A DNA stretch of 64,000 nucleotides, from the NCBI RefSeq assembly GCF_000374085.1, contig NZ_KB893389.1:2274-66273 (forward strand), read 5' to 3'. The notes beneath the pieces are model-generated. The model searched no databases and was not told the DNA's origin. It was given only the letters and a program-made list of their open reading frames with translations. Source of the stretch: Spirosoma spitsbergense DSM 19989. Lineage in GTDB: Bacteria > Bacteroidota > Bacteroidia > Cytophagales > Spirosomataceae. Positions 47,699-64,000 of this stretch are shown in pieces. A program made the translations under genes and the position numbers. The stretch's first letter is position 1; every line of letters begins with the position of its first letter.

Positions 47699-48274
47699 TT
47701 ACAGAAACAGTAGTACCTCATTGTGAAGAGCTTCCCGGTGCTGAGCCTTAATTTGTTTAAAAAAAGTAGGGGTTAGGCCGGTGACCTTTTTGAACTGATT
47801 GGATAAATGTGCCACACTGCTGTAATGCAGTTTGTACGCTATCTGGCTAAGACTCAGTTCATCATACAGCAGCAGTTCTTTCACCTTCTCAATACGCTGA
47901 AGGATAAGGTACTGCTCAATGGTACTACCCGTCACCTGAGAAAACAGGTTGGACAGGTAGTTATAATCATAGTCGAGTTTTTTACTGATATACTCAGAGT
48001 TTTTTAGTTTAGATGGTGAGTCTGTGTACTCTACCATGTTAAGAACCGTGGTTTTTATCTTTTCAATCAGGATGGCTTTTTTATCGTCCATTAGTTCGAG
48101 TCCCGATACCAATAAAGCGATTTTCAATTGGTCACGCTGCTTAGCGGTAATAGCTTCCTTGAGCTCTACTTCACCTAATTTCACTACGCTGTAAGCCAGT
48201 CCAAGTTGATACAGGATTGCCTGCACAATTAGTTTACAGCGTCTGGTAACCATGTATTTGATGTAGAGTTTCAT
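47699..48274 (-). CDS. Small AraC-type regulator with HMA-like N-terminal region
   Basis: 191 residues from the ATG at 48274 (MKLYIKYMVTRRCKLIV); the longer frame upstream runs into transposase debris. The C-terminal half is an AraC helix-turn-helix domain (LDYDYNYLSNLFSQVTGSTIE; LSLSQIAYKLHYSSVAHLSNQFKKVTGL). The N-terminus resembles the short heavy-metal-associated-like beta-alpha-beta unit that precedes this HTH in Bacteroidota regulators, which normally reads MVCxRC. Here it is MVTRRC, so the first Cys of the pair is lost. Targets are unknown; it could regulate the kinase region. Confidence 0.82.
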   Translation of the reverse strand: MKLYIKYMVTRRCKLIVQAILYQLGLAYSVVKLGEVELKEAITAKQRDQLKIALLVSGLELMDDKKAILIEKIKTTVLNMVEYTDSPSKLKNSEYISKKLDYDYNYLSNLFSQVTGSTIEQYLILQRIEKVKELLLYDELSLSQIAYKLHYSSVAHLSNQFKKVTGLTPTFFKQIKAQHREALHNEVLLFL

Positions 48275-48429
48275 GTTGGTAGTTGTTTGGACGAACTGGT
48301 AACTGCTTTGAGCAGGTTCGAAAGGCAGGAGAAGGGAAAGTAATAGAATAGGTGGGTGAATATGCTCGCTGAACTGTGTCAGCGGGGTTAATCGAAGCGA
48401 TGGTGTTTGATCGCTCCTCAAAGATAGCG

Positions 48430-48648: not shown

Positions 48649-48724
48649 GATTGTTAAGCAGTAAAAACATATAGGGGGCAGATTCTCAAACCTGCCCCCT
48701 ATATGTTTTTACTGCTTAACAATC
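48649..48724 (-). terminator. Very long hairpin terminator overlapping a stop codon
   Basis: Arms 48649-48681 and 48692-48724 pair perfectly over 33 bases around a 10-base loop. The inner part (GGGGGCAG stem, then TATATGTTTTTAC) looks like a Rho-independent terminator for the metalloprotease gene. The outer part of the right arm contains that gene's last codons and stop (48709), and its complement lies across the loop. Ordinary terminators are much shorter. Confidence 0.8.
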
Positions 48725-51096
48725 CGTCGCCTGAATACGGCTTCTCCCATTCGTATCTCCACGAAGTATACACCGCTGGGAGCGTATTTGAGGTCGAGGG
48801 GTTGCTGGAAGGTGTCCGTTGTTTTCTGGTGCGCTTGCTGGACGATTTCCGTACCTGCCACCGTACGAACGCCCAGTGTGAGAACACCGCGCAGCGGGCT
48901 GCTGAAAGACACCATCATCTGCCCATCGCTGGGGTTGGGCGTTACCTGAAGGGCCTGTTCCGCCAAGGGCGTGGTAGCCGTGACCGCACCCACCCGAACA
49001 TTCACCGTTACCACTGCCGAGGTGCTGCACAGGTCCGTACCCGTACCAGAAACGGTATAGGAAGCCGTTTGGGTAGGCTGAGCCACGACCTGAGGACCAA
49101 GCGTGGCGTTCAGGGCTGGTCCCGTCCAGGTGTACAGACCCGCACCCCGTGCATTGAGCGTAACCGTTTCGCCGGGGTTGATGAATATAGACGAAGCCGC
49201 TACCTGCACCGAGGACTTCTGTCCAACACGGGCCGTAATATCGTGCGCTACGTTCAGGCCCAGGCTATCCGCATAGCGCAGCCAGTTGCCCTGCCGGTTT
49301 TGCTGCCACGAGGTGGCAAACAGCGACTGACCGTTTTTAGTCGTGATAACGGCCACAGTATCACCCGATGCGTACGGAAACGAGACACCGACATGGAAGG
49401 GTAAGCCACTGACCGGTACATTCCGGTCGAAGGTCACGGTGGTAGCCCGGTTAGCGGCTACGTCCGCCAGAATATCGCGCAGGGGTACATCTTTCTGGCC
49501 CAGAATAGCACCGGGACCATTTTGAAAACCGCGCCCGTTCCAGACCGTTACCGTTACAACCGATTCGCTGGTGGCCCCTTTGGCGGCTTTGGCAACCCCG
49601 AATTTCAGGGCGGCTCCGGCCAGGTTCAGGTAGCCCAGTTTGTTGGCAAAAAACTCGGAAACAGCCTGTACCCGGCGACCATTCTGTCCGGCCACATACC
49701 CAATCCGACTGGTATCGCGCAGGATGGTGGGCGTGCCATTGAAGTTAGTAATATCCGTGCAAAGCCCCTGATTCAATACTTCAATGTATTGGGAGCGCAC
49801 CAAAGGCTCTGACTGACCGGCTGCGTTGGAAACAACTAATCTTACGCCAAAAACACCCGGCTGCGAATACGTAACGACGGGATTCTGCTCGTTGGACGTA
49901 GCGGGTGTCCCGCCTTCGAAGGTCCAGGACCAGGCCGTTGGAAAACCGCTGGAGAGGTCGTTGTACCGAACCGAGCCACCCAGCAACACCTGTTGTGCTT
50001 CGGCCCGGAAGTTAGCCACGGGAATGGTAGCTACTACAGAACCACATACACCAGAGGTGAGCAGGCTGCTCCGGCGCGGGCTGATGTCCATCACCGCCCG
50101 CATCCGGGCTTTCTGACTTAGCGTGAAGATGTTCATACACGCATCGTTCGAATAGTCCATGTAATCCTGCACCAGATTCGTGGCACCACAACTGACCTGC
50201 CCGATTGGGCATCCCTGACTGGCCGCTGCCTGCGGGGGAGTGTCATCGCAAAAATCATCGCCACAATTGGCATCGCCCCAGATGTGGCGTAACCCCAGCC
50301 AGTGCCCCGTTTCGTGGGTCATGGTGCGGCCCAGGTTATAGGTACTACGCATGGTGGGAAAGTTCCCCTTCTCCGAATTTCCGAAGGAACGGTAATCAAT
50401 AACGACCCCATCCGTACTGGCCGGGCTATCGGTAGGAATACCGGGCAGATTGGATTTGCTGGGAAACTGCGCGTATCCCAACACTGACCCACCCCCGGCT
50501 ACCGGTTCGTTCAGGTCCACAACCCATACGTTATAGTATTTATCCGGGTCCCAGTAGGTGCTGGGTTTTAGCACGCCTTCTATATCATTGCGATTCCAGT
50601 TGGCCCGTGCGCCGTTGTACCGGTCGATACCCGGTTCGGCCATGGGCCTCCCCTGCCGGTCCAGAACGGCGGCACAAAATTCAATTTCAATGTCGGCTCC
50701 GATGGCGTTGGTGTTGAAGCCCCGCGTATTAGGGCGCCGACGGAAATCTTCATTCAGGGTTGCAATTTGCGACTGCACCTGCGCCTGACTTAGATTTCGC
50801 CCGGCTCCCACCGCTTCGCCGTTGTGTACGACATGAACGATAATGGGAATGGTAATAACGGGAGCGGCAGGCAACCGGCCCGACTTCATTTGCTGGTTGA
50901 TGATCGTTATCCGTTGCTGTAATTCCCGCTCAAAATCGTTGAGCGCTCCAAGCTCGGGATGGCGCGCCCGCAACAGGCTATCCATTTCCATGGTCACACA
51001 CTGCTGGGTAACCGGCAACGTTTGTGTTTTTACCTGGGCCTGCACCAACGGGTTGAGTAACGTGAGCAGCAACAGGCTAAGTAGTAGTCTGAACAT
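48709..51096 (-). CDS. T9SS-exported M43 family zinc metalloprotease
   Basis: 795 residues from the ATG at 51096 (MFRLLLSLLLLTLLNPLVQAQ), chosen for its signal peptide and 4-base spacing from the gene before it. The zinc motif HETGHWLGLRH (HExxHxxGxxH, about residue 257) is followed by GDDFCDDTP and the Met-turn region DYMDYSNDACMNIFT, typical of the pappalysin (M43) family. Then come a PKD domain (WSWTFEGGTPATSNEQNP) and a C-terminal T9SS sorting domain (VTPNPSDGQMMVSF ... GVYFVEIRMGE). It should be displayed or secreted and cut extracellular protein. It ends the operon of SusC, SusD and two lipoproteins. Confidence 0.93.
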   Translation of the reverse strand: MFRLLLSLLLLTLLNPLVQAQVKTQTLPVTQQCVTMEMDSLLRARHPELGALNDFERELQQRITIINQQMKSGRLPAAPVITIPIIVHVVHNGEAVGAGRNLSQAQVQSQIATLNEDFRRRPNTRGFNTNAIGADIEIEFCAAVLDRQGRPMAEPGIDRYNGARANWNRNDIEGVLKPSTYWDPDKYYNVWVVDLNEPVAGGGSVLGYAQFPSKSNLPGIPTDSPASTDGVVIDYRSFGNSEKGNFPTMRSTYNLGRTMTHETGHWLGLRHIWGDANCGDDFCDDTPPQAAASQGCPIGQVSCGATNLVQDYMDYSNDACMNIFTLSQKARMRAVMDISPRRSSLLTSGVCGSVVATIPVANFRAEAQQVLLGGSVRYNDLSSGFPTAWSWTFEGGTPATSNEQNPVVTYSQPGVFGVRLVVSNAAGQSEPLVRSQYIEVLNQGLCTDITNFNGTPTILRDTSRIGYVAGQNGRRVQAVSEFFANKLGYLNLAGAALKFGVAKAAKGATSESVVTVTVWNGRGFQNGPGAILGQKDVPLRDILADVAANRATTVTFDRNVPVSGLPFHVGVSFPYASGDTVAVITTKNGQSLFATSWQQNRQGNWLRYADSLGLNVAHDITARVGQKSSVQVAASSIFINPGETVTLNARGAGLYTWTGPALNATLGPQVVAQPTQTASYTVSGTGTDLCSTSAVVTVNVRVGAVTATTPLAEQALQVTPNPSDGQMMVSFSSPLRGVLTLGVRTVAGTEIVQQAHQKTTDTFQQPLDLKYAPSGVYFVEIRMGEAVFRRRIVKQ

Positions 51097-51100
51097 ACAC

Positions 51101-51595
51101 CTATTTGGTCGTAACGGGGTTGAACGTAAACCGATAGCTGGCATTGATATCCGGGAAATAGTATTCAACCGTCATGGTCTGGGCCGTCAGGTTTTTTATT
51201 TTCCAGGGATATACCCCATTGAGCAACGGAATGTAAAACTGTAGCGACGCATTGGCATTGACCAGCGTCCAGGTATCCGTTACGTATATATCCGGGTCGC
51301 TCGCATTACATTTTGTGGCTCCCTCACTGGCTTCAAACTTATGCTCCGCATCGGCGTAAAACGTCAGCAAGTCGTCGGTGATGCAGGGATTTGCATTGAG
51401 TTGATTTACCGGAATTACCGACGAGGCATTGCCATCGTCGATAATCTGTATCGAGACCATTTTCCAGGTCTTCTTCTCCGTTCCTGTCAGCAATTGCGAG
51501 TAGGTTGGAATGACGGGTTCAATCTGTTGAGAACAGCCACCAAGTAGCCAGCCAACCACCCCCGGAATTAGTAAAAAGCGTATAAACTGTCGCAT
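51101..51595 (-). CDS. Small lipoprotein, lipocalin-like
   Basis: 164 residues with signal peptide and lipobox (GWLLGGCSQQ), followed by a beta-rich domain (KKTWKMVSIQIIDDG; LLTFYADAEHKFEASEG; LQFYIPLLNG; MTVEYYFPDINASYRFTF) of the kind often described as lipocalin-like in Bacteroidota. It is between the Calx-beta lipoprotein and the metalloprotease, separated by 30 and 4 bases. Probably a cell-surface accessory binding protein of the SusC/SusD complex. Confidence 0.7.
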   Translation of the reverse strand: MRQFIRFLLIPGVVGWLLGGCSQQIEPVIPTYSQLLTGTEKKTWKMVSIQIIDDGNASSVIPVNQLNANPCITDDLLTFYADAEHKFEASEGATKCNASDPDIYVTDTWTLVNANASLQFYIPLLNGVYPWKIKNLTAQTMTVEYYFPDINASYRFTFNPVTTK

Positions 51596-51625
51596 CCTGT
51601 CGAATCGTTAAAGGTCAATTATTCC

Positions 51626-52486
51626 TCACTGGGGCGTATAGGTCTGGGTGTAGGTAAGGGTCGTATCTTTGGTGCTGCTGAGTGCCAGCGTAAACCGAAG
51701 ATTCAGCGTAATCTTGCGATCTTTAGGGTTCCAGGCACCGGTTCCCGCTATTTTATCCGTCGGCCCCAGTTCCGGATTGGTTTGCGAGGGTACCGTCAGC
51801 GAATTATCACCATTGTCGATAAAGGTTAGCGTTGGACGCTGGGCGTCGAAACTCAGGAACGGAATAACGAGGTTCCAGTTGCTCAGGAGGTAGTTTTTAC
51901 AATCGGTGCTGGTAATCTGAATGTTCGGCACGGTGGCGGTCTGCGCACCATATCGCTGGGTTCCCGTGTACGTGCCGCCGAACAGACAGTCGTCCTGAAT
52001 GACGAAGGTTAGCTGTTTCCCCACGATGTTATTCTTCCCAAACCCAACCTGTAAAGTGCTGGGCGTAACACTGGTCAGCGTAAACGTGAGCGACTGCGAT
52101 TCGAGGATGTTGTTGGCGTTATTGATGAGTTTCAGGACAATATTTCCCGTACTCTTATTGGCCGGAATAACCACTTTTCCTTCAGTACTCTGAATAGTAT
52201 AATCTCTGCCCGCCCGGGCGGTGCCACTCACGGTATAATTGATGGTGATGGGTTCGGCCAGAATTGGCCCAACGTTGTGTACCTGAATGGGAATAGGCTG
52301 GCTGTAACTCTCTTTGTAGGTAACCAGTGTATCCGTGAACCGGACAAAATAGGGTCCTTCGAAGACGCGGTTGACGTCACTGGTTTCGCAAGCAACCGAT
52401 AGCCAGCCAATGAGCGCAACGGCAATCCCCATTAGCCCCCAGTGGCTTATTCGCTGTAGAAAGGTATGTTTTGTTTCTTTTTTCAT
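51626..52486 (-). CDS. Surface lipoprotein with Calx-beta-like domain
   Basis: 286 residues with signal and lipobox (LIGWLSVACETSD). The N-terminal half (GPYFVRFTDTLVTYKESY; VSGTARAGRDYTI; SLTFTLTSVTPSTLQVGFG) resembles Calx-beta and DUF4843-type domains found in SusC/SusD operons, with GTARAGRDY in the Calx-beta turn. A second beta domain begins at CLFGGTYTGTQRYG. It is 27 bases after SusD, and is probably an accessory surface glycan- or peptide-binding protein. Confidence 0.72.
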   Translation of the reverse strand: MKKETKHTFLQRISHWGLMGIAVALIGWLSVACETSDVNRVFEGPYFVRFTDTLVTYKESYSQPIPIQVHNVGPILAEPITINYTVSGTARAGRDYTIQSTEGKVVIPANKSTGNIVLKLINNANNILESQSLTFTLTSVTPSTLQVGFGKNNIVGKQLTFVIQDDCLFGGTYTGTQRYGAQTATVPNIQITSTDCKNYLLSNWNLVIPFLSFDAQRPTLTFIDNGDNSLTVPSQTNPELGPTDKIAGTGAWNPKDRKITLNLRFTLALSSTKDTTLTYTQTYTPQ

Positions 52487-52513
52487 GTTTTTGTGGGCAA
52501 ACGAGCCGTTGCG

Positions 52514-53887
52514 TTAGTAACCAGAATTTTGGGTCAGCGCGGTGTTTAGCTGGGTTTCCCGCTGGGGTATGGGCCACAGTTCGTAGTGGCTGTCCCAGTT
52601 AGGCGAAAAGGCCGACATTACGGCTTGTGCCCGGCCCGTTCTGACCAGGTCGTACCACCGTTGTCCTTCAAATGCCAGTTCGTACACCCGCTCCCGCTCT
52701 ACGGCCAGCAATACATCAGCCTGCGCCGTGAGGGTTATGGCCGGGGCTTTGGCCCTGGTGCGCAGTATATTCAGATCAGCAACGGCGCCGGTGGCTCCCG
52801 TCAGTTTGCCCTGCTGCGCCCGTGCTTCGGCCCGAATCAGGTATAGTTCTGCCAGCCGCATATACACGATATTGTTGTTATCTTCCGATGCAGTGCCGTA
52901 TTTTCGAACGGTCCAGCCATTATCACTAGCCCGTTGCTGCTGGGCGTTAAAGGTAATAGTCTGGCTCCGCGTACCGGCTTCGGTCGAGATGAGTGCAGCC
53001 ACCAACTGGTTCGACGGGATAACCTCCCGTCGGCCAACGAGCAGGTTGTTCAGACCGGTAGCCGACGTTCCGGGGTCGTCACTCAAACTATAGCCCACTT
53101 CCAGGACGGATTCAGCCGTAAAATCTTTGGTGATAACGTCCGAATAATTGGTCAACAGCGTATATACGCCAGAGCTGATTACCTGCGTGGCGAGGGCTTC
53201 GGCCTGCGCCCAGTTTTTCTGATACAGGTAAAAACGGGCCATAGCCGCCCGGCAATTGACTTTATTCAGATACGTGGCGTTGGTGGTAGCGTTCGTCGAA
53301 GCCGAGGTAACATCCGGCAAATCGGTCAGCGCGGCCTGATAATCGGCTAGTACCGAAGCCAGAATATCAGCTTTAGCCGTGCGGGCTATCTGGGTGTTGG
53401 TCTGGTTATCGGTAGTGGTTACTTTGGGAATGTCGCCGTAGGTATAAGCCCCGATAAAATTAGCCCAGCCACGCATAAACCGGGCTTCGGCCAGTACCTG
53501 TTTCCGCACGTCGTCTTTAACCCCACTAACGTTCGGTAGCCGCTCCAGAATAAAATTAGCCACGTAAATGGTGCTGAACAGGTTATTCCAAAGAACATCT
53601 ACCACGCCATTGGTAGACGTAATTCGTTTGGTACCAAACTGAATGTAGTCGTTAAACGTACCATTCGCCTGGATATAATCGGCCGTAAAATCGCCTGCAA
53701 TCATAGTAGAGGCACCCATACTGCGAAACGCATTGTACAGGCCAATCCGAACGGGCTGCACATCGTTGGGTTCGTTCAACACCAGATCATCGACCAGCAG
53801 ATCGACTGGTTTAGGCTCCAGTATCTGCTGGCATGAGGCCAGAATGGCGAGTGTCAGAACGATACTATATCGAAAGAAACGAATCAT
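52514..53887 (-). CDS. SusD/RagB family nutrient-binding lipoprotein
   Basis: 457 residues from the ATG at 53887 (MIRFFRYSIVLTLAILASC); the frame extends 15 codons further but the lipobox decides the start. SusD body: EARFMRGWANFIGAYTYGDIPK; MRLAELYLIRAEARAQQG; VERERVYELAFEGQRWYDLV; ELWPIPQRE; ending LTQNSGY. Closer to the RagB type of protein/peptide uptake systems than to the long glycan SusDs in this window, judged only by its size and neighbours. It pairs with the SusC 34 bases upstream. Confidence 0.92.
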   Translation of the reverse strand: MIRFFRYSIVLTLAILASCQQILEPKPVDLLVDDLVLNEPNDVQPVRIGLYNAFRSMGASTMIAGDFTADYIQANGTFNDYIQFGTKRITSTNGVVDVLWNNLFSTIYVANFILERLPNVSGVKDDVRKQVLAEARFMRGWANFIGAYTYGDIPKVTTTDNQTNTQIARTAKADILASVLADYQAALTDLPDVTSASTNATTNATYLNKVNCRAAMARFYLYQKNWAQAEALATQVISSGVYTLLTNYSDVITKDFTAESVLEVGYSLSDDPGTSATGLNNLLVGRREVIPSNQLVAALISTEAGTRSQTITFNAQQQRASDNGWTVRKYGTASEDNNNIVYMRLAELYLIRAEARAQQGKLTGATGAVADLNILRTRAKAPAITLTAQADVLLAVERERVYELAFEGQRWYDLVRTGRAQAVMSAFSPNWDSHYELWPIPQRETQLNTALTQNSGY

Positions 53888-53921
53888 GTTGCAATTGTTA
53901 TCTTCGCCCGTGGGGCATTTA

Positions 53922-56900
53922 CTAAAAACCAATGGTCAAGCCTACAAATACCGTTTTTACCTGGGGAAGTGTAAAGAAATCAATCCCCTGCGAAGCCGTT
54001 GAACCGTCCAGCGTACTCACTTCGGGGTCGGGTCCGGAGTAGTTCGTCAGTGTCCAGAGGTTCGTGGCCGATGCATAAATCCGGGTGTTGGTTATTTTGA
54101 ACCGCTCAATCCATTTTTTAGGCAGGTTGTAGCCAACCGACACATTTTTCAGGCGCAGGAAGGAGCCATCCTCCAGAAAACGGCTGCTGGTGTAGTTGTT
54201 GTAGGTATTCTGAAAAACGTAACGGGGTACACTGGTGATGTCACCCTCTTTTTGCCACCGTTTCAGCGCCTGCCGGGACTGGTTGCTCTGAATATCAGAC
54301 CCGGTATTGACCAGCGTAACGTTCGTAAAATTAAGAATACTGTTGCCATACGAGAACTGCAGAAATGCACTCACGTCGAATCCTTTCCAGGAGACCCGGT
54401 TGGTCAGGCCGCCGTACAGTTTGGGTTGGGCATTACCAATTACCTGCCCATCATCGGGCGTGATTTTACCATCGCCGTTTTTATCGTCGTAGATGGCATC
54501 ACCCGTCGCCGGGTCGACCCCCAGGAATTTCAGCCCCCAGAAGGTTCCCAATGGCTGGCCGGGCAAAATGACGTTGGTATTGGAAACACCATTACCCGTA
54601 TAGCCCCGAAAAACGGGCTGGTCGGTGGCCAGGGACACTACTTTATTCTCGTTATGCGAAATATTGAAGTCGGTAGTCCAGCGCACCGCCTTGTTGATGT
54701 TTACGCTCGAAATTGTCAGCTCGACACCCCGGTTCGATACTTCTCCAATGTTACCCTGCACGGTACTAAAACCAGTTGTTTGCGGAATCGGCTGGGCAAA
54801 CAGCAGTTTATTGGTCAGGTTGTCATAGGCATCGATAGTAAATGTCAGCCGACCGCTGTAAAACGAGGCATCCAGGCCAATATTGGCCTCGCGGGTGCGT
54901 TCCCATTGCAGGTTTGGGTTGGCTAGGGCAGCCGGGCCAACGCCCGTGGCTCCGCTGTAGGTAGCCGACGCCCAGGTACCCAGAAACTGGTAATCGCCAA
55001 TTTGCTCATTGCCCGTAAACCCAAAACTGGTTCGCAGTTTCAAGTCGTTTAGAAAACGGAACTGCTGCATGAACGGCTCGGACGATATGCGCCAGGCCGC
55101 AGATGCCGACGGGAACAAGCCAAACCGCCGGTTCTGCCCGAATCGTGAGGAGCCGTCGTAGCGCGAGGTGATTGTGGCCAGGTACTTCTCGTCATAATCG
55201 TACCGGACTTCGCCAATAAGCGAGATTAGGCCATTGCGGTTTTTGTAGGAATCGCCCTGGTCTACTATCCCTGCCGACCGAATGTAAGTGAAATCATCGC
55301 TGGGAAACAGACGCCCCTGCAGGTTTCCACTCCGTTCAAACTGCTGCTGTAACTCAAAACCGGCGGTTCCGCTGAAATGATGTTTTTCGGCCAGTTGGTA
55401 GCTGTAATTCAGGGTATTCGTATTGACAATCTTTGACACGTTTGCGCTACTGAAAACGCCGTATCCCTGACCGCCTACGCTGGGCAAAAAGCCGCCAATA
55501 GCCGTGGTGGACGGCTCGAACTGGTCTTCGGTGATGTTATTATAGTCCGCACTTATTTTCGACCGGAAGCGTAGGTTTTGCAGGATTTCGTATTCGGCGT
55601 AAAGCCCGACCAGCATCTTGATGGTGTAGGTTTCAAAACGCGGTAGCAAAGCCTGACCAACTGGGTTAAAATTGGGGAAACCCGCATATTCGGGGTCATT
55701 GGGGCCATACAGCTTACCTTGTTCATTGTAGGGTGAATAATAGGGTAAACTCTTCAGCGCACCCGAATAAACACCATCCAGGAAGTTATCGCCTTTTACC
55801 CGCTTGTTTTTCACCTGCGACAGTGTCAGGTTCATGCCGAACGAAAGCTTGTCGGTGGCTTTATGGTCGAACTTGAACTGGCCGGTGTAGCGGGTAAACT
55901 GGCTATTGAGTTGAATTCCCTGTTCATTGCGGTAGCTACCACTGAGGTAAAACTGCGTTTTGTCATTACCGCCCTGGGTGGATAGCTGATACTGCTGGTA
56001 AACGCCTTTTCGCAGAACAGAGTTAATCCAGTCGGTATTCTGCCCATCGGTAACCCCTTTTATAAGACCCAGTTTATCGGGGTCCTGACCGGCATTAATC
56101 ACCGCTTCCCGCTGTAAGTCCAGCAGTTCGGTAGCATTCAGCAAATTGGGCCGACGAATAATATCAACCATGCCCTGCTGAACGTCGGCCGTAAATTTCG
56201 TTTTCTGATTGGCTTTTCCCCGCTTGGTGGTTATCAGGACCACGCCATTGGCCGCCCGCGACCCGTAAATGGCTTTGGCCGACGCATCTTTCAGCACGTC
56301 GATGCTCTCAATGTCGTTGGGATTGAAGAGCGCCAGTGCATTATCTGTCTGGCCACCAAAATCCCGCCCCGTAAGTGCTCCGTTTTCAACCGGCACGCCA
56401 TCCACAATGAACAGGGGACGGTTGCTGGCCGAAATAGAGGTGTTGCCGCGTACTCTGACCATGATTCCACCACCGGGCGTACCCGACGATTGCGACACCT
56501 GCACACCAGCCGCCTGCCCCTGTAGAGCCTGGTCGAAACTAGCCACCGGGATGTCTTTGAACTTGTCGGGCGAGATGGACGCAATGGAACTGGAAATATC
56601 TTTTCGCTGGGTAGTATTATACCCCGTTACGACTACCTGCGTCAGTTCATTGATGGATTCCTGCATCTGGATGTTGATCGTTGTGCGGTTGCCAACGGTA
56701 ATTTCCTGGGATACCAGTCCGATGGAGGTAGCAAGCAGTATAGCGGTACTGCCGGGAACGGTGATGGAGTAGTTCCCATTGGCATCGGAGCTAACGCCAT
56801 TGGTAGTACCTTTCACCTGAATATTCACACCGGGCAACGGTTGCCCATCCTGCACCGATATAACCCTACCCGATATACGAACACCCTGCGCCAGCAGATA

Positions 56901-56957
56901 ACCCGGTAGTATGGCCAGCAGAACTGCCCAGATAATAGCACTGTAGAATTTTCTCAT
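53922..56957 (-). CDS. SusC/RagA family TonB-linked outer-membrane transporter
   Basis: 1011 residues from the ATG at 56957 (MRKFYSAIIWAVLLAI, signal ending YLLAQG). Carboxypeptidase-like beta-sandwich (ISGRVISVQDGQPLPGVNIQ), TonB-linked QVVVTGYNTTQRKD, plug (ALQGQAAGVQVSQSSGTPGGG; LKDASAKAIYGSRAANGV) and barrel ending KTVFVGLTIGF. No STN domain, and no sigma/FecR pair nearby, so unlike the two glycan loci it is not controlled by transenvelope signalling. First gene of the operon that ends in the M43 protease. Confidence 0.94.
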   Translation of the reverse strand: MRKFYSAIIWAVLLAILPGYLLAQGVRISGRVISVQDGQPLPGVNIQVKGTTNGVSSDANGNYSITVPGSTAILLATSIGLVSQEITVGNRTTINIQMQESINELTQVVVTGYNTTQRKDISSSIASISPDKFKDIPVASFDQALQGQAAGVQVSQSSGTPGGGIMVRVRGNTSISASNRPLFIVDGVPVENGALTGRDFGGQTDNALALFNPNDIESIDVLKDASAKAIYGSRAANGVVLITTKRGKANQKTKFTADVQQGMVDIIRRPNLLNATELLDLQREAVINAGQDPDKLGLIKGVTDGQNTDWINSVLRKGVYQQYQLSTQGGNDKTQFYLSGSYRNEQGIQLNSQFTRYTGQFKFDHKATDKLSFGMNLTLSQVKNKRVKGDNFLDGVYSGALKSLPYYSPYNEQGKLYGPNDPEYAGFPNFNPVGQALLPRFETYTIKMLVGLYAEYEILQNLRFRSKISADYNNITEDQFEPSTTAIGGFLPSVGGQGYGVFSSANVSKIVNTNTLNYSYQLAEKHHFSGTAGFELQQQFERSGNLQGRLFPSDDFTYIRSAGIVDQGDSYKNRNGLISLIGEVRYDYDEKYLATITSRYDGSSRFGQNRRFGLFPSASAAWRISSEPFMQQFRFLNDLKLRTSFGFTGNEQIGDYQFLGTWASATYSGATGVGPAALANPNLQWERTREANIGLDASFYSGRLTFTIDAYDNLTNKLLFAQPIPQTTGFSTVQGNIGEVSNRGVELTISSVNINKAVRWTTDFNISHNENKVVSLATDQPVFRGYTGNGVSNTNVILPGQPLGTFWGLKFLGVDPATGDAIYDDKNGDGKITPDDGQVIGNAQPKLYGGLTNRVSWKGFDVSAFLQFSYGNSILNFTNVTLVNTGSDIQSNQSRQALKRWQKEGDITSVPRYVFQNTYNNYTSSRFLEDGSFLRLKNVSVGYNLPKKWIERFKITNTRIYASATNLWTLTNYSGPDPEVSTLDGSTASQGIDFFTLPQVKTVFVGLTIGF

Positions 56958-57033
56958 GTATAAGGTGTACGCCAAATGAAAGCGGTTTGAGGCAGGTTTG
57001 TTAATCGAAAAAACAAAGCACTAAAAATAGGGT

Positions 57034-57065
57034 AAAAGCTACTTTTTTCAAACGAAAATAGTAGC
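57034..57065 (-). terminator. Rho-independent terminator
   Basis: Arms 57038-57049 and 57054-57065 (GCTACTATTTTC on the minus strand) pair with one mismatch around a 4-base loop, with TTTT after it on the minus strand. It lies 115 bases past the stop at 57181 and should end the transcript of the broken monooxygenase gene before the SusC of the protease locus. Confidence 0.75.
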
Positions 57066-57180: not shown

Positions 57181-58452
57181 TCATTTGATATAATAAAATA
57201 CCAGATTCATCATCTCATCGGTTGAGCTCCAACCGTAGCCAACCGTACGGACCGGGTGGTTAGGATTCAGTGGATTCTGATCGGTATTATCGTAATGGGC
57301 CTCAGCAATGATGGTCGAGCCTTTGGGCAGTACGAGTGGCTCACGGAAGAAGTAGGTAAGTTGCCAGCGGTAATCCCAATCCGGGATGCTGACCAGATTG
57401 ATGGCCTCACCCGCCGGCGTTATGGCAAACGCCCTTACCGACTGACCCAGCCAGTGCATATGAGGCAGCACCGACAACAGCCGGACGGTATCGGGCAACG
57501 GTCCGTAGTTGATATAAAAGGTGGGCCTGGTATTAGCCGCCAGCCGAAAGGGCTGATTCGTAATGTTATTTTCTGTAAGCGTAAGCGTCCGCACAATTTG
57601 CTTCACCGGCTTTTTGGCGAAATATAACCGTACCTCCGACTGGTCCTGTGCGGCATTGGGCGAAGGTGAATAATGAATGTTAAGGATCAGGTCGCTACCG
57701 GCCCGAATGCGTTTGACCGACCCCGCCGGGAAGGTTACGCGGTCATTGCCGGGCACCCAACCGTAAAGAAATTCGTCGGCCAGTGGTGTTTTCTAAAAAT
57801 CGAGCAGGTAGGCATCATCCTCTGCAATGCCATCAATACCGGCCATGGTCCCCGTTGAGTCAACCATCAATCGGCTATGGTGCAACAGTTTTCGGTTACC
57901 CGGTACAAACTCAATGGCCGTTACCCATACATCCTGGGCCAGGTTCATGGGTACGTGGAAATACCGAAAATCCTCCCGACCATCACCTTTGATGGCGTAG
58001 GGTTTCATGCGCAGAACAAGATCGGGTTTTACTTCTTCAGCCGAATCGTCCGTCTCTTTTACCGCTTGTTTTATGTTGGACTTTTCCTCATTCCTCTCTC
58101 CTTCCGGCATGCCTCCCTGCACCCAGTTCTGAATCATCCTTATCTCGGTATCGGATAACCCCCTTTCGTTGGCGTAATGCTGGAAGGTACGGTCGGCCGG
58201 AAAGGGGGGCATATAGCGGCTCTGGGTCACTTTGGCAATGAATTTGCCCCGTTTCGCAACGTCCGGGTAAGTCAGTAAGCTAAATGGCCCTACCCCACCC
58301 GGATGATGGCAGGGCGTGGCACAATTGCGGATAATGATGGGCTGGATAGTGGCGGTGTAGGTAGGAATCAGTTGTGCCACAGCCGCTTTACCTATCCAGA
58401 AAAGCCCAAAACTACATACCCATAGTGCAAGCTGCCACTGTCTCATATGCAC
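57181..58452 (-). pseudogene. Cytochrome/copper monooxygenase-like protein interrupted by one in-frame TAG
   Basis: One frame of 424 codons with a single TAG at 57793-57795. The first part has a signal peptide (ALWVCSFGLFWIGKAAVAQ) and a haem-type motif NCATPCHHPGG with GPFSLLTYPDV and RYMPPFPADR, typical of c-type cytochrome heads. The second part has HHSRLMVD, LLSVLPHMHWLGQSV and AEAHYDNTDQNPLNPN, the copper-ligand pattern of type II ascorbate-dependent monooxygenases. The stop falls in YLLDF*KTPLADEFLYGWVPGND. The haem motif is CX3CH, not CXXCH. Substrate unknown. Confidence 0.82.
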
Positions 58453-59263: not shown

Positions 59264-60979
59264 TTAAAATTCCCACTTATATTTTGTCTTGTCCCAGAAC
59301 ACCGGGTCACGGTCGAAGATGACGTTTGCCACGTAGGTAGCAGCATTCGGGTTCAAATTACCCTCCTGAGCTGGGTAAGGCAACCGCAGAGCGTACTGAC
59401 GGGGTGGTTTCAGAATAGGAGGCTGAATACCGACCGAGAACTGCTTGAAGGGCCCCTGCACGGGATAACCCGTCCGGCGCATCATATTCCAGATTTCCTG
59501 TCCCTGACCATACGAAGAAAACCATACCTGCTTGGCTACTACGTTCAGTTTGGCCTGATCGCTCAGAGCGGCATCGTATAGTTTCAGCCAGGCATTTACA
59601 TAATCAGTAATAGCTTTGTCAGTAGGGGCCACTGATCTTGAATCGGCTTTCTGACTAACGCTTACTACCAGTGCAATTTGCTCGCGCATGGCGGCTTCAA
59701 ACAGGGCTTTGGCATCACCGGTTACACCGGTTCCGTCCAGGATAGCTTCGACCTGATAAAACTTAATGTTCCAGCTTGTAATCAGCGGCCATATACCATT
59801 ACCACCTGGATTGTTACCCGTCAGCGTTTTAGCTGGAGTCTCCCGGCCCGAATAGAAACCACCAGCTGGGTAAGCACCCGGCGTAGCACGCAGCGCACCA
59901 TCAGCCGGTGCACCCGTATTATCTCCCCGGTCCCGGCCAAAAAATCCCGATAAATAAGCAATGTCTGCTTTTGTTGGGTCCTGCGTATCGTTATAGAATA
60001 CCCGCTTGTATTCGGCCAGGAAAGCCGGACGCAGGGGCAGGTAAGTGCCCCCGAAAGGGATAGTACCCCGGTCAGTTGGGTTCGATGGATCGAGCGTGGC
60101 ACTGGTTTGCCGGTAGAAGTAAAATGGCAGACGCGGGTCCATGTTCAGAATCATTTCGCCCATCAACTGATGGTTGATGTAGGTCGCATCACCCGTACCG
60201 GTATAAGGTCCCTGAAACAGCGGGTGCCGGTCGTCCTGTGGCGAAATCTGCGTCGAATACTGATAAACGAAGTTCTGGGCAGGGGTAGTGATAAAGCCAC
60301 CCGCATCGAAGGCGGCCTTCAGGTCAGCATTTCCCGTTGCGCGACCTTTGCGCGAATTGAACAGCAACCGGAGTTTAACCGTCTTGGCTAAACGGGTCCA
60401 GGTAGCAGCACTACCGGCTCCAATAAAATCGCTGGCTACGGCTACGGCCTGTGGTTTCGCTAATTCAACAACGGCCTGGTCGCAGAGTTTGATTATATTC
60501 TCATAAATGGCCACGTCTTTGTCGAACTTAACGGCTTTATCCGTACCGGGAATATTACCCTTCCAGGCTTCGGAGTAGGGAATATCGCCGAACTGATCGA
60601 CCATGTTCCCGACGGCATACGCTTTAAGCACCATCGCAATGCCCCGATAAATGGGACTCTTGCCATCGTCCGTTGCTTTCAGTATTTCCTCCACGTTCTG
60701 CATACTCCGGTAGAAGGAATTCCAGGTTCCGTTATATGAGTTGTTAGTCAGGTTGTAATTGTCGGCACTGTTGCGCAGCCCGGCAAATCCCCCTGCATCA
60801 CTCACTACCTGCACCATTGAATTGGTAGCGGCCAGTTCTGCCGTTGGTAGCAGCAGTTTTAACGCTGCTGCCGATGGCTTGTTGGGGTCCTGATTGATAT
60901 CGAGTTCGGTAATGCTACAGGCACTAACTAAGGCCACGCACCCACCAAACAGGAGCGATTTAAAAAAAGTATGTTTCAT
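59264..60979 (-). CDS. SusD-like lipoprotein (SusD-like family 2 type)
   Basis: 571 residues with lipobox VALVSACS, then ELDINQDPNKPSAA, the characteristic N-terminus of the second SusD-like family; the helical body includes VLKAYAVGNMVDQFGDIPYSEAW and FYQVEAILDGTGVTGDAKAL. It lacks the usual SusD C-terminal NPGY-type ending and closes FWDKTKYKWEF. It pairs with the SusC 25 bases upstream. No degradative enzyme adjoins it, so the ligand is unknown. Confidence 0.9.
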   Translation of the reverse strand: MKHTFFKSLLFGGCVALVSACSITELDINQDPNKPSAAALKLLLPTAELAATNSMVQVVSDAGGFAGLRNSADNYNLTNNSYNGTWNSFYRSMQNVEEILKATDDGKSPIYRGIAMVLKAYAVGNMVDQFGDIPYSEAWKGNIPGTDKAVKFDKDVAIYENIIKLCDQAVVELAKPQAVAVASDFIGAGSAATWTRLAKTVKLRLLFNSRKGRATGNADLKAAFDAGGFITTPAQNFVYQYSTQISPQDDRHPLFQGPYTGTGDATYINHQLMGEMILNMDPRLPFYFYRQTSATLDPSNPTDRGTIPFGGTYLPLRPAFLAEYKRVFYNDTQDPTKADIAYLSGFFGRDRGDNTGAPADGALRATPGAYPAGGFYSGRETPAKTLTGNNPGGNGIWPLITSWNIKFYQVEAILDGTGVTGDAKALFEAAMREQIALVVSVSQKADSRSVAPTDKAITDYVNAWLKLYDAALSDQAKLNVVAKQVWFSSYGQGQEIWNMMRRTGYPVQGPFKQFSVGIQPPILKPPRQYALRLPYPAQEGNLNPNAATYVANVIFDRDPVFWDKTKYKWEF

Positions 60980-61004
60980 TTTTTAGTAAGTCAAGTCGGA
61001 TTGA

Positions 61005-64000
61005 TTAGAAAGAAGCCGATACGTTGATACCAAACCGGCGCGTGGAGGGAGCAGCTCCCAAATCGAAGCCCTGAATGTTCAGGTCCGGATAGCTCGACAG
61101 TACTTCGGGGTCGAAGTTAAGCCCTTTGAGCATGTTGGGAGCCACAAACCACAGGTTACGACCCGATGCCGAAACACGCAGACTACCAAACACTTTCGTG
61201 TACTTTTTCAGGAACGCCTTTGGTAAAGTATATCCTAAAACAACTTCACGCAAGCGAATTACCGTCGTCTCGTATACGTTCGTCTCATCTGCTCCGTAGG
61301 CACCAAATCCGTTCGAGAAGTGGTACTGGAAAGCCGTCATTGGTATAGTGTTTGGCTGCTGTTTACCATTTTCATCTAAGATGGCCTTGTACGTAGCTGG
61401 ATCACCATATACACCCGGAATTACGCGCAACCCTTCCCGATCTTCCGAGTCTTTCAACTGACCTCGCAACAGCAGCGAAGCCGCCGTAGCTGAGAAGATT
61501 TTGCCACCCTGCCGGTAGTCGATCAGTGCCGACAGGTTGAAACCCTTCCAGGAGAAGTTGTTGGTAATACCCAGCGTGAAGTTGGGGGCCGGATTACCCA
61601 GAATCTGCGATCCTGGCAGCGTAAACGGCAAACCCGAAGTAGGGTTGATGAGTAATTTACCATCTTCACTGCGGGCATTCACTGTACCATAAATCTGCCC
61701 GAAGGGAGACCCTTCCCGATGAAGGGTACCGAGCGAGGAAAGGCCCGTACCACCGAGGAAGATTTCACCGGCCGGACCGGCACTTACTACGTTGGAGCGT
61801 AGCCGGGTGAAAGCACTTGTAATAGACCACTCAAATCCGTTAGCCAGCCGCAACGGCACTAGCGTCAGGGCAATTTCAATGCCCTTGTTATCGATTTGAC
61901 CGGCGTTAGTCACTTCGTTGTAGAAGCCCGTAGCCGCCGGAATCCGGCGTGATACGATCAGGTCCGTCGATTTCCGATAGAAATACGCAAAATCGAGGTT
62001 TATCCGACTGTTGAAGAACTGTAACTCTGCCCCTACTTCGGTTTCTGTGGTGAATTCCGGCTTTAGGTTGGCGTTGTTCAGTTGATTGGGTAAGGTAGCT
62101 ATCGAATATGGGGTTGCATTTACGTATGTACGACCCAGGTCATATGCCGTGTACACATTGTACGGGTCAGCATCTTTACCCACCGTAGCATAGTTAGCCC
62201 GCAGCTTACCAAAGTTCAGGATGTTTTTTGGTAGGTTGAACGCGTCCGTAAAGACAAACGAGGTCGATACAGCCGGATAGTAATAGCTATTGTTAGCAAT
62301 TGGCAGGGTTGACGAGTGATCGTTCCGCACACTAGCCGTTAAGTACAGATAGTTATTGTAGGATAACGACAGTTCACCAAAAATACCGAATAGCCGACGC
62401 TTCCGATTTAGTTCATCGGCCGATTGACTAAGCGTGCCTCCTATTGTCAACACAGTAGGGTCAATAACCTGACTACCAAACAACCGGGACTGCTGGTACG
62501 TACGCTCGTTGAGGTTAAGTCCTACCAGCAGGCGGGCCGAAAAACGCTCACCAATCTCTTTGGTAGCCGTAGCCAGAAAAGTAAGGTCCGTCTCTGTGTT
62601 GGTCAGTTCCGTTTTTGTGATAGCTCCTAATGGAATAGCGGTACCGCCCGGACGGATATTGTTGTGACGCGTTTCGTGATAGGTGTTTACTCCACCGCGA
62701 GCGGTCAGGTTCAGCCAGGGCGTTACGTCATACGTCAGGGCCATGTTGCCATATACCCGGTTTACCTTAGAGGTGTACAGGTTATACTTGGCCGTCCAGA
62801 GCGGGTTGTCCAGCGCCCGGTAAAACACATTCGAGCCATCTACCGGGTTCTCGAACGGGTAGCCGCTCAGGTTGTAGTTACGGGGCAGGTAAAACAGGCG
62901 GTCATAAATAGAGCCGCTCGACCCGGAACTATAATCGGTAAAAAACGAAGCACCCGACTGAGGGCTTTGCTGATTGGTATTTACGTAGTTTACGTTACCC
63001 GACACATTGAGGCCATTGACCAGGGTAGCATTACCACCGAAGTTAAGCGAGGTACGCTCCGTAAACGAGTTCGGAATAATACCGTCGTTCCGTAAACGGG
63101 AAATACCGGCATTCAATGAAGTCTTGTCGCCGGTAGAACTGATGTTAATCGAATTTTCGGCTACCTTACCCTGCTTGAAAAAGCCACCGATAATGTCGTA
63201 GGGCTGTAAAGGTACTGGTACTGCATTCCCGCTGGCATCCAGAAATTCCGGGAACACGCTCTTATACCGGGCAGCCGTGTAGGGTACGCCCACAATGGGG
63301 TTAGGCACTGTGCCTTCTGGATACCCATCCTGAATTGTTTTCGAGTAGCGGTCGAAGCCTAAAGTAGCATTAACCCGGTCAACTTCCGACGGGAATACCG
63401 TACCCCAGTTGCCGATGAATCCACCGTTATACTGCTGGTTAGACCCCTGCGTGTAGGTGTCCTGATAATTGGGAACGGTAGATATTTTCTCCACCGAGTA
63501 CGAGCTTGAGTACGTAACTTCCAAGCCTTTGCGGGCTGATTTACTGCCTGCCTTGGTCGTGATGACAATTACCCCGTTTGCCGCCCGTGAACCATACAAC
63601 GCAGATGCTGCCGCCCCTTTCAGTACGGTCATAGCCTCGATATTGTTCGGATCAATATCATAAGCCCGGTTCGACACAACCGAGTTGCTGGCGTAGTCAG
63701 CCCCGGCACCATTGGAGGAGTTATCGAAGGGAATACCATCCACCACAAACAGGGGCTGGTTATTACCCGCAAAGGAGTTATTACCGCGGATATTGATTTT
63801 GGTAGCCTGACCGGGGGCACCACCACCGGCAATAATGTTTACGCCGGGTACTTTACCGGATAATGCCCGCAAGGGGTCTGGTTCTGAACGTTGTTGAAGA
63901 AGATCGCCCTTCACTGTGGTGATGGCGTAAGCAAGAGCCTTCTTTTCACGCTGCTGGCCCAGAGCAGTTACTACCACTTCGCCCAATTGCTTAGAGTCGT
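61005..64000 (-). CDS. SusC/RagA family TonB-linked transporter, 5' end outside the window
   Basis: The frame is open to the right edge (998 codons inside); upstream residues DSKQL precede GEVVVTALGQQREKKA, so the signal peptide and any carboxypeptidase-like or STN domain lie beyond position 64000. Visible: plug (ALSGKVPGVNIIAGGGAPGQA; LKGAAASALYGSRAANGV) and beta-barrel ending RRFGINVSASF. LKGAAAxALYG is the variant of the plug motif usual in SusC proteins paired with SusD-like family 2. First gene of the locus with 59264-60979 and 58529-59203. Confidence 0.93.
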   Translation of the reverse strand, partial: DSKQLGEVVVTALGQQREKKALAYAITTVKGDLLQQRSEPDPLRALSGKVPGVNIIAGGGAPGQATKINIRGNNSFAGNNQPLFVVDGIPFDNSSNGAGADYASNSVVSNRAYDIDPNNIEAMTVLKGAAASALYGSRAANGVIVITTKAGSKSARKGLEVTYSSSYSVEKISTVPNYQDTYTQGSNQQYNGGFIGNWGTVFPSEVDRVNATLGFDRYSKTIQDGYPEGTVPNPIVGVPYTAARYKSVFPEFLDASGNAVPVPLQPYDIIGGFFKQGKVAENSINISSTGDKTSLNAGISRLRNDGIIPNSFTERTSLNFGGNATLVNGLNVSGNVNYVNTNQQSPQSGASFFTDYSSGSSGSIYDRLFYLPRNYNLSGYPFENPVDGSNVFYRALDNPLWTAKYNLYTSKVNRVYGNMALTYDVTPWLNLTARGGVNTYHETRHNNIRPGGTAIPLGAITKTELTNTETDLTFLATATKEIGERFSARLLVGLNLNERTYQQSRLFGSQVIDPTVLTIGGTLSQSADELNRKRRLFGIFGELSLSYNNYLYLTASVRNDHSSTLPIANNSYYYPAVSTSFVFTDAFNLPKNILNFGKLRANYATVGKDADPYNVYTAYDLGRTYVNATPYSIATLPNQLNNANLKPEFTTETEVGAELQFFNSRINLDFAYFYRKSTDLIVSRRIPAATGFYNEVTNAGQIDNKGIEIALTLVPLRLANGFEWSITSAFTRLRSNVVSAGPAGEIFLGGTGLSSLGTLHREGSPFGQIYGTVNARSEDGKLLINPTSGLPFTLPGSQILGNPAPNFTLGITNNFSWKGFNLSALIDYRQGGKIFSATAASLLLRGQLKDSEDREGLRVIPGVYGDPATYKAILDENGKQQPNTIPMTAFQYHFSNGFGAYGADETNVYETTVIRLREVVLGYTLPKAFLKKYTKVFGSLRVSASGRNLWFVAPNMLKGLNFDPEVLSSYPDLNIQGFDLGAAPSTRRFGINVSASF

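Follow-up and report, generated by a model that had tools for sequence, protein, structure and literature searches.

We analyzed a 64,000-nucleotide stretch of the Spirosoma spitsbergense DSM 19989 genome (hereafter the window, whose positions give all coordinates) for a set of five adjacent minus-strand genes that encode an outer membrane importer, two lipoproteins, and a protease. In the order of transcription these are a SusC/RagA-type TonB-linked outer membrane transporter of 1011 amino acids (aa; 53922..56957), with a CarboxypepD_reg-like N-terminal domain, a plug, and a barrel; a SusD-like lipoprotein lid of 457 aa (52514..53887); a first lipoprotein of 286 aa (51626..52486), in which an N-terminal Calx-beta/DUF4843-type domain is joined to a C-terminal small beta-barrel domain (the Calx lipoprotein below); a second, small lipoprotein of 164 aa (51101..51595), called Lipocalin_4-like from the Lipocalin_4 matches of its alignment members; and an M43 (lower pappalysin) protease of 795 aa (48709..51096). 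An earlier note on this DNA had proposed these five genes, spaced 34, 27, 30, and 4 bases apart, and both the open reading frames (ORFs) and the sequence bear out the genes and the gaps.

The transporter matched TIGR04056 in NCBIfam (E 1.7e-258) and the Pfam families Plug (1.4e-20) and CarbopepD_reg_2 (2.8e-18), while the lid matched SusD_RagB (2.5e-28) and SusD-like_3 (7.2e-20) in Pfam and carries a lipobox-like motif, LASC, read from the sequence. With the barrel gene adjoining that of a SusD-family lipoprotein across the 34-base gap, the two form a SusC/RagA-SusD/RagB importer pair. Among the solved structures of the PDB, phmmer placed SusC closest to 8aa4 (1.3e-155), followed by RagA (6sli, 1.6e-99) and BT2264 (5fq6, 1.6e-45). 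Loci built on SusC and SusD (SusCD) are mostly interpreted as polysaccharide loci. The set had been described beforehand as free of glycosidases, and Pfam and NCBIfam scans agreed, with no match to glycosidase or carbohydrate-active enzyme families among the five genes. Because a polysaccharide utilization locus encodes a carbohydrate-active enzyme together with SusCD, we rejected that reading of the locus.

The protease is organized as a signal peptide, a pro-segment, the catalytic domain, a PKD domain, a further C-terminal region, and a tail for the type IX secretion system (T9SS). Pfam matched Peptidase_M43 (5.2e-14) and PKD (1.7e-10); the tail, a C-terminal type A sorting domain of the kind that marks T9SS cargo, matched Por_Secre_tail (4e-6; 27.5 bits, cut-off 27) and TIGR04183 (7.5e-8; 32.2 bits, cut-off 23). 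The labels that the earlier note had given to SusC, SusD, the M43 protease, and its T9SS tail were therefore confirmed in Pfam or NCBIfam, whereas its Calx-beta and lipocalin labels found weak support, through the alignment members described below. The catalytic domain was nearest to mirolysin (6r7u, 5.9e-42) and ulilysin (8cdb, 1.5e-36) among solved structures, and the nearest named relative found for the protease is in Spirosoma luteum DSM 19990 (93%). The zinc site, which runs from His261-Glu262 to His271 (50284..50316, minus strand), is intact: His261, Glu262, His265, and His271 are invariant in an alignment of 21 sequences (A5), and the HExxHxxGxxH motif is kept in 60 of 60 M43 relatives. 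A Met-turn with its aspartate is present in 59 of the 60; in the exception (L112) the gene reads as two ORFs, and the sequence compared is its first part. The zinc motif and the Met-turn followed by the S1' aspartate, which is D318 by alignment and invariant in the 21 sequences, place the enzyme among the lower pappalysins. Cys33 and Arg74 of the pro-segment are also invariant in these sequences, and Cys33 is followed by V, A, I, or S, so that a Cys-Gly cysteine switch is absent. Autolysis before Arg74 would fit a preference for cleavage before Lys or Arg, but the Cys, lacking a following Gly, departs from the described switch. The genome as a whole holds 51 SusC matches and five M43 matches; two of the other four M43 matches (G000:C178:28478-28990 and G000:C161:146661-147146) lie about 1 to 5 kb from a SusC gene on the opposite strand.

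Taken singly, neither of the small lipoproteins matched Pfam at 0.001. At E up to 0.1, however, 27 of the 30 members of the first one's alignment matched Calx-beta (best 1.1e-6) and 20 of 30 matched DUF4843, with the window protein itself at 16 bits against the curated Calx-beta cut-off of 27. Its Cys33 is invariant across the 30 sequences, and searches of the PDB with the single sequence or a profile gave no meaningful match. The AlphaFold 2 model, built like that of the second lipoprotein from eight sequences, is of middling confidence (mean predicted local distance difference test, pLDDT, 66.8). The modelled N-domain resembles Calx CBD1 (3ead; Z 10.0, root-mean-square deviation (rmsd) 2.8, 112 aligned), and the modelled C-terminal barrel resembles BT2262, both alone (5fq3; Z 10.0, rmsd 2.9, 108 aligned) and as the copy in the BT2261-2264 complex (5fq8; Z 9.6, rmsd 2.9, 107 aligned). 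Since designed barrels and a streptavidin variant match the modelled C-domain as well as BT2262 does, the model shows a common fold here and is not evidence of kinship. Auxiliary lipoproteins, 3n91 and 4qni among them, match the modelled fold too.

For the second lipoprotein, 13 of the 31 alignment members matched Lipocalin_4 at E up to 0.1, the best at 1.8e-5, and a remote kinship to this family is therefore likely, even though the window protein itself gave no Lipocalin_4 match at 0.1 and fell short of the curated cut-off. Its Cys21 is invariant in the 31 sequences. Against the PDB, the single sequence found nothing and the profile found only PPR and ubiquitin proteins, which we took as noise; the AlphaFold 2 model is poor (pLDDT 58.4) and its Foldseek and VIA results were too weak for use. 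With the BT2262-like C-domain of the first, the two lipoproteins are plausible partners of SusC. Two further observations concern the small lipoprotein. Four loci of other families (L149, L150, and L151 in f5, L154 in f17) carry a second, weakly matching lipocalin-like copy 3' of the M43 gene, and distant paralogs (L129-L133) belong to a different recurring block, whose other genes encode about 136, 370, and 481-489 aa.

Conservation of the set was assessed from searches, and from a choice of counted stretches, made without the protease; nine loci found via the protease were excluded from the count. The Calx lipoprotein is present in 30 of 36 Spirosoma genomes, including the window's own; counting weak matches, the small lipoprotein was found in 76 of 150 family genomes. 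Sixty stretches were fetched (L075-L134), half of them from Spirosoma (30 stretches, 29 genomes) and half from outside the genus (30 stretches, taken from 29 of the 61 genomes there that matched the small lipoprotein). By tblastn position, the order SusC-SusD-Calx-lipocalin-M43 was found in 52 of these 60 stretches of genus and family, counting two in which one gene reads as two ORFs (SusD in L076, M43 in L112). The other eight are the two parts of a single locus broken across contigs (L103, L104) plus six distant small-lipoprotein paralogs elsewhere (L129-L134). All six stretches from a second family, f5 (L148-L153), show the complete order, and in f17 (L154) the portion present on the contig agrees. 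Full-strength relatives of the Calx lipoprotein occurred in f1, f5, and f17 within a sample of 148 genomes of the order, and none was found outside the family in a sample of 296 genomes of the class. A gene order not conserved in other genomes had been named in advance as one of two outcomes that would refute the proposal, and the proposal came through that test.

Absence of the set was also joint. In four near-complete Spirosoma genomes that have no Calx lipoprotein (G013, G019, G024, G031), the SusC and M43 orthologs are missing as well; all that these genomes retain is SusC paralogs at about 40% identity or lower and a shorter paralog of M43 (43-44%). Two Calx-less genomes are fragmentary: one lacks all three genes (G026), and in the other (G027) SusC and a fragment of M43 lie on separate small contigs. 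Because Calx, SusC, and M43 orthologs are absent together in near-complete genomes, the five-gene set seems to be acquired or lost as a whole across the Spirosoma genomes that were checked. The conserved order and the joint absence in the four genomes led us to reject chance adjacency, and an arrangement of neighbors without shared function, for which we found no supporting point, has almost no chance of being correct given the order in f1, f5, and the on-contig part of f17.

More distant loci were informative about what follows the importer. A wider profile (A6) had matches in 141 of the 390 genomes searched in the order (E at most 1e-6), and from 40 stretches outside the family, chosen by Calx score and not randomly, we set aside seven with M43 (L148-L154) and six weaker ones (L161-L164, L166, L167), leaving 27 loci without M43 and with an A6 score of at least 60 bits. 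An unrelated protease comes next in 16 of these 27 SusC-SusD-Calx loci (13 T9SS-tailed subtilases, one trypsin-like protein, and two S9 peptidases), or in 13 of 22 without the five loci that are rows of A6 themselves (L155-L159). The subtilases of family S8 measure 1140-1161 aa (836 aa in L178) and occur in f18 (L155), f19, and f22; S8, the Por tail, and PKD were confirmed by Pfam in L155, L158, L178, L182, and L185, and the other S8 calls come from a profile built here. The trypsin-like protein (L156, f14) has a T9SS tail and matches Trypsin_2 at 23.8 bits, below the curated cut-off of 27.6. In f12, an amidase gene and then an S9 peptidase gene follow in L170 and its relative L179; no T9SS tail was detected in the peptidase, and L179 was assigned to S9 by homology to the Pfam-tested S9 of L170. 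Pfam scans of proteins encoded downstream in relatives found no glycosidase; an acetyl xylan esterase family came up solely as a weaker, overlapping match in the S9 protein. Eleven subtilase-type loci (L158, L168, L171, L177, L178, L180, L181, L182, L184, L185, L186) also have a gene of 225-240 aa adjoining the protease gene, without a Pfam match in the three scanned (L158, L178, L185).

The control scan took in one or two genes shortly after SusD, rather than whole operons, in 35 SusCD loci elsewhere in the window's genome, 39 proteins in all, with the second gene taken and a short first gene skipped in L215, L216, and L227. About six SusC genes without a same-strand gene at most 350 bases after SusD were left out, as was L217. 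A peptidase was present in two of the 35 control loci (S8 in L215, M14 in L227), and a T9SS tail at 1e-5 in none of the 39 control proteins. Fisher tests gave p 7e-6 for any protease (16/27 vs. 2/35) and p 7e-7 for T9SS-tailed proteases (14/27 vs. 0/35), values that overstate the evidence because the loci are related. Phylogenies of SusC connect the two main protease types at one point. L155, which has S8 and the small lipoprotein, groups with the M43 loci at support 100 in both the FastTree and the IQ-TREE phylogeny, though not among the M43 rows, and on this single locus one importer lineage would carry either M43 or S8. The FastTree phylogeny put the SusC proteins of M43 and all other Calx-linked loci except L161 and L163 in one set together with four controls (support 98).

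Together, the gene content and order, the joint presence and absence, the intact zinc site, and the unrelated proteases in one slot, all of them observed directly, probably describe a protein-foraging outer-membrane system that combines T9SS export, external digestion, capture, and TonB-dependent peptide import. The M43 protease would be exported by the T9SS, mature by cleavage before the invariant pro-segment arginine, and cut proteins before Lys or Arg. The Calx-beta/barrel and lipocalin-like lipoproteins may sit at SusC as capture or docking partners, SusD would close on the released oligopeptides, and SusC with TonB would import them. In relatives the protease slot appears interchangeable, so that a subtilase, a trypsin-like protease, or an S9 peptidase could serve behind a comparable importer block. 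Cargo, localization, and complex formation are what we infer in this scheme. The idea that proteins are cut outside and their fragments imported had been put forward in the earlier note; the coupling of external proteolysis to peptide import is now supported by the all-or-none presence and the unrelated slot proteases, while the choice of peptide over glycan as cargo keeps a conditional standing. Since unrelated proteases occupy the same slot in distant relatives, the comparison points to protein rather than sugar as the food.

An extension of this scheme is possible, although we hold it with considerable doubt: a modular peptide utilisome whose SusC-SusD-Calx core docks different T9SS proteases (M43, S8, or trypsin-like) and is re-aimed by protease exchange, with peptides that start with Lys or Arg as the cargo of the M43 form. 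An importer block found beside differing secreted proteases could serve as a genomic criterion for protein-foraging SusCD loci, and the M43 form yields a chemical prediction, namely that the imported peptides begin with Lys or Arg.

Several observations weigh against protein foraging as we have described it. In 11 of the 27 distant Calx loci, the M43, S8, and T9SS-tail profiles, and Pfam where it was applied, detected no protease in the slot (L157, L160, L165, and L173-L176 lay outside the Pfam scan); three of the 11 are near contig ends (L160, L169, L183), and L172 (f22) has Fasciclin and MraW genes in the slot. L155 stands alone as a locus of its kind, and no sister relation emerged between the window's clade and the SusC of the larger S8 cluster, so the protease association may have arisen twice; in a smaller IQ-TREE phylogeny, rooted at the midpoint with 12 of 42 controls and with L161 and L163 omitted, the M43 clade lies nearer to controls than to the S8 cluster. 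The small lipoprotein reached only Z 3.4 against BT2261, on a poor model, and its lipocalin-like fold and any kinship to BT2261 are putative at most. Finally, the nearest solved SusC, 8aa4, belongs to the dextran utilisome of B. thetaiotaomicron and scores 523 bits, compared with 337.5 for RagA and 159 for BT2264.

This last point is also an argument for glycan or glycopeptide harvesting, in which the protease would remove protein from glycoproteins or cell-wall material and SusC/SusD would take up the sugar part. The fold shared by the Calx lipoprotein with 3n91 and 4qni fits this alternative, as does the poor model of the small lipoprotein, which ranks a surface glycan-binding protein first (Z 5.5). 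The five genes include no carbohydrate-active enzyme, however, and what recurs downstream in relatives is unrelated protease families with no glycosidase among the Pfam-scanned proteins, so we judge this explanation unlikely. A surface-processing or defensive protease, acting in the maturation of surface proteins or on the toxins of rivals while SusCD imports something else, is a poorer candidate still. T9SS proteases can process surface proteins, and because the genome holds 51 SusC and five M43 matches, one pairing of the two need not be metabolic; all-or-none presence with SusCD and unrelated proteases in the slot nevertheless fit bulk digestion better than one specific processing step. Poorer again, and in our estimate very improbable, is the release of a protein-bound micronutrient or hydrophobic ligand (a metal, haem, or a cofactor) by the protease for capture by the lipocalin-like lipoprotein. 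The Lipocalin_4-like second lipoprotein and the Calx-beta-like fold, matched to calcium-binding domains, could be read in this way, but the five genes include no metal- or haem-handling family, SusC belongs to the SusC/RagA subfamily, and several broad protease families would be an unlikely solution for a single carrier protein.

Sequences around the set bear on its transcript. A terminator-like hairpin with a 32-bp perfect stem (48653..48720, minus strand) reaches into the M43 gene and takes in its last codons and stop; its folding energy of -54.2 kcal/mol (z -13.9) was equalled by none of 200 shuffles. Hairpins lie at the same place in several relatives (59 examined, median -26 kcal/mol, a figure without shuffle control). 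Given the stem here and the strong hairpins in relatives, the transcript probably ends at this hairpin. A candidate promoter, TTTG-N19-TATTTTTA (57022..57052, minus strand), lies 95 bases 5' of the SusC start. This combination, which we take to be the promoter consensus, matched 5' of 17 of 58 relatives compared with 20% in shuffled sequence, and the candidate was rejected as unsupported. Downstream, a minus-strand gene (47702-48277) encodes an AraC-type DNA-binding domain without an evident N-terminal part and is possibly a truncated regulator. It was set aside as the regulator of the set, as among the genes listed in relatives none had it as best match above 40 bits, in a search that took in no other regulators. 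Upstream, a Cu2_monoox_C-like gene (57181-58452, minus strand) has an in-frame stop near 57793, its Spirosoma relatives in L084 and L087 measuring 423 and 431 aa. Beyond it, a second SusC and SusD-like_2 pair and then a 224-aa gene without a Pfam match occupy 59264-63986 (minus strand); a SusC gene of varying kind lies 5' of the five-gene set in many relatives.

Protein foraging as proposed here can be compared with several known systems. The protease shares with mirolysin and ulilysin a homologous catalytic domain, the zinc motif, the Met-turn, and the S1' aspartate, and differs from them in its added PKD domain and T9SS tail and in a pro-segment Cys without a following Gly. RagAB of Porphyromonas gingivalis (6sli) is likewise a SusC/SusD-type importer, related at E 1.6e-99 over SusC. 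Its partner enzymes, the gingipains, differ in being cysteine proteases encoded elsewhere than RagAB. We know of no Calx or lipocalin-like partner for RagAB. In the published work, RagAB is fed with gingipain-cleaved peptides (PMC11817032), and both it and BT2263-2264 are treated as oligopeptide importers (PMC10132118).

The BT2261-2264 system of B. thetaiotaomicron (5fq6, 5fq7, 5fq8) has the same complement of SusC, SusD, and two small lipoproteins, with a BT2262 barrel that resembles the C-domain of the Calx lipoprotein; its complex structure holds oligopeptide ligands (PMC7782687), and its in vivo function was termed an open question (PMC6080902). The window set differs in its distant SusC (E 1.6e-45) and in the weak match of its small lipoprotein to BT2261 (Z 3.4). 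The levan and dextran utilisomes unite a SusCD core, surface lipoproteins, and a degrading enzyme in one complex (PMC7618045), a composition that the proteins of the window set may share; they differ in having a lipid-anchored glycosidase rather than a T9SS protease, and a glycan cargo (PMC7618045). A SusCD locus of Flavobacterium collinsii (TRV642_0198 to 0209) likewise has peptidases that include M43, and its authors predict oligopeptide uptake for it (PMC10132118); that locus is longer and has five peptidases (S9, S37, M24, M43). Because the same paper covers peptidase-linked SusCD loci, the concept, including one locus with M43, is already in print. Our literature search (titles and abstract openings, mainly open-access) found no published description of this five-gene set, and what is new here is that unrelated proteases follow SusC-SusD-Calx in the same slot of more distant loci.

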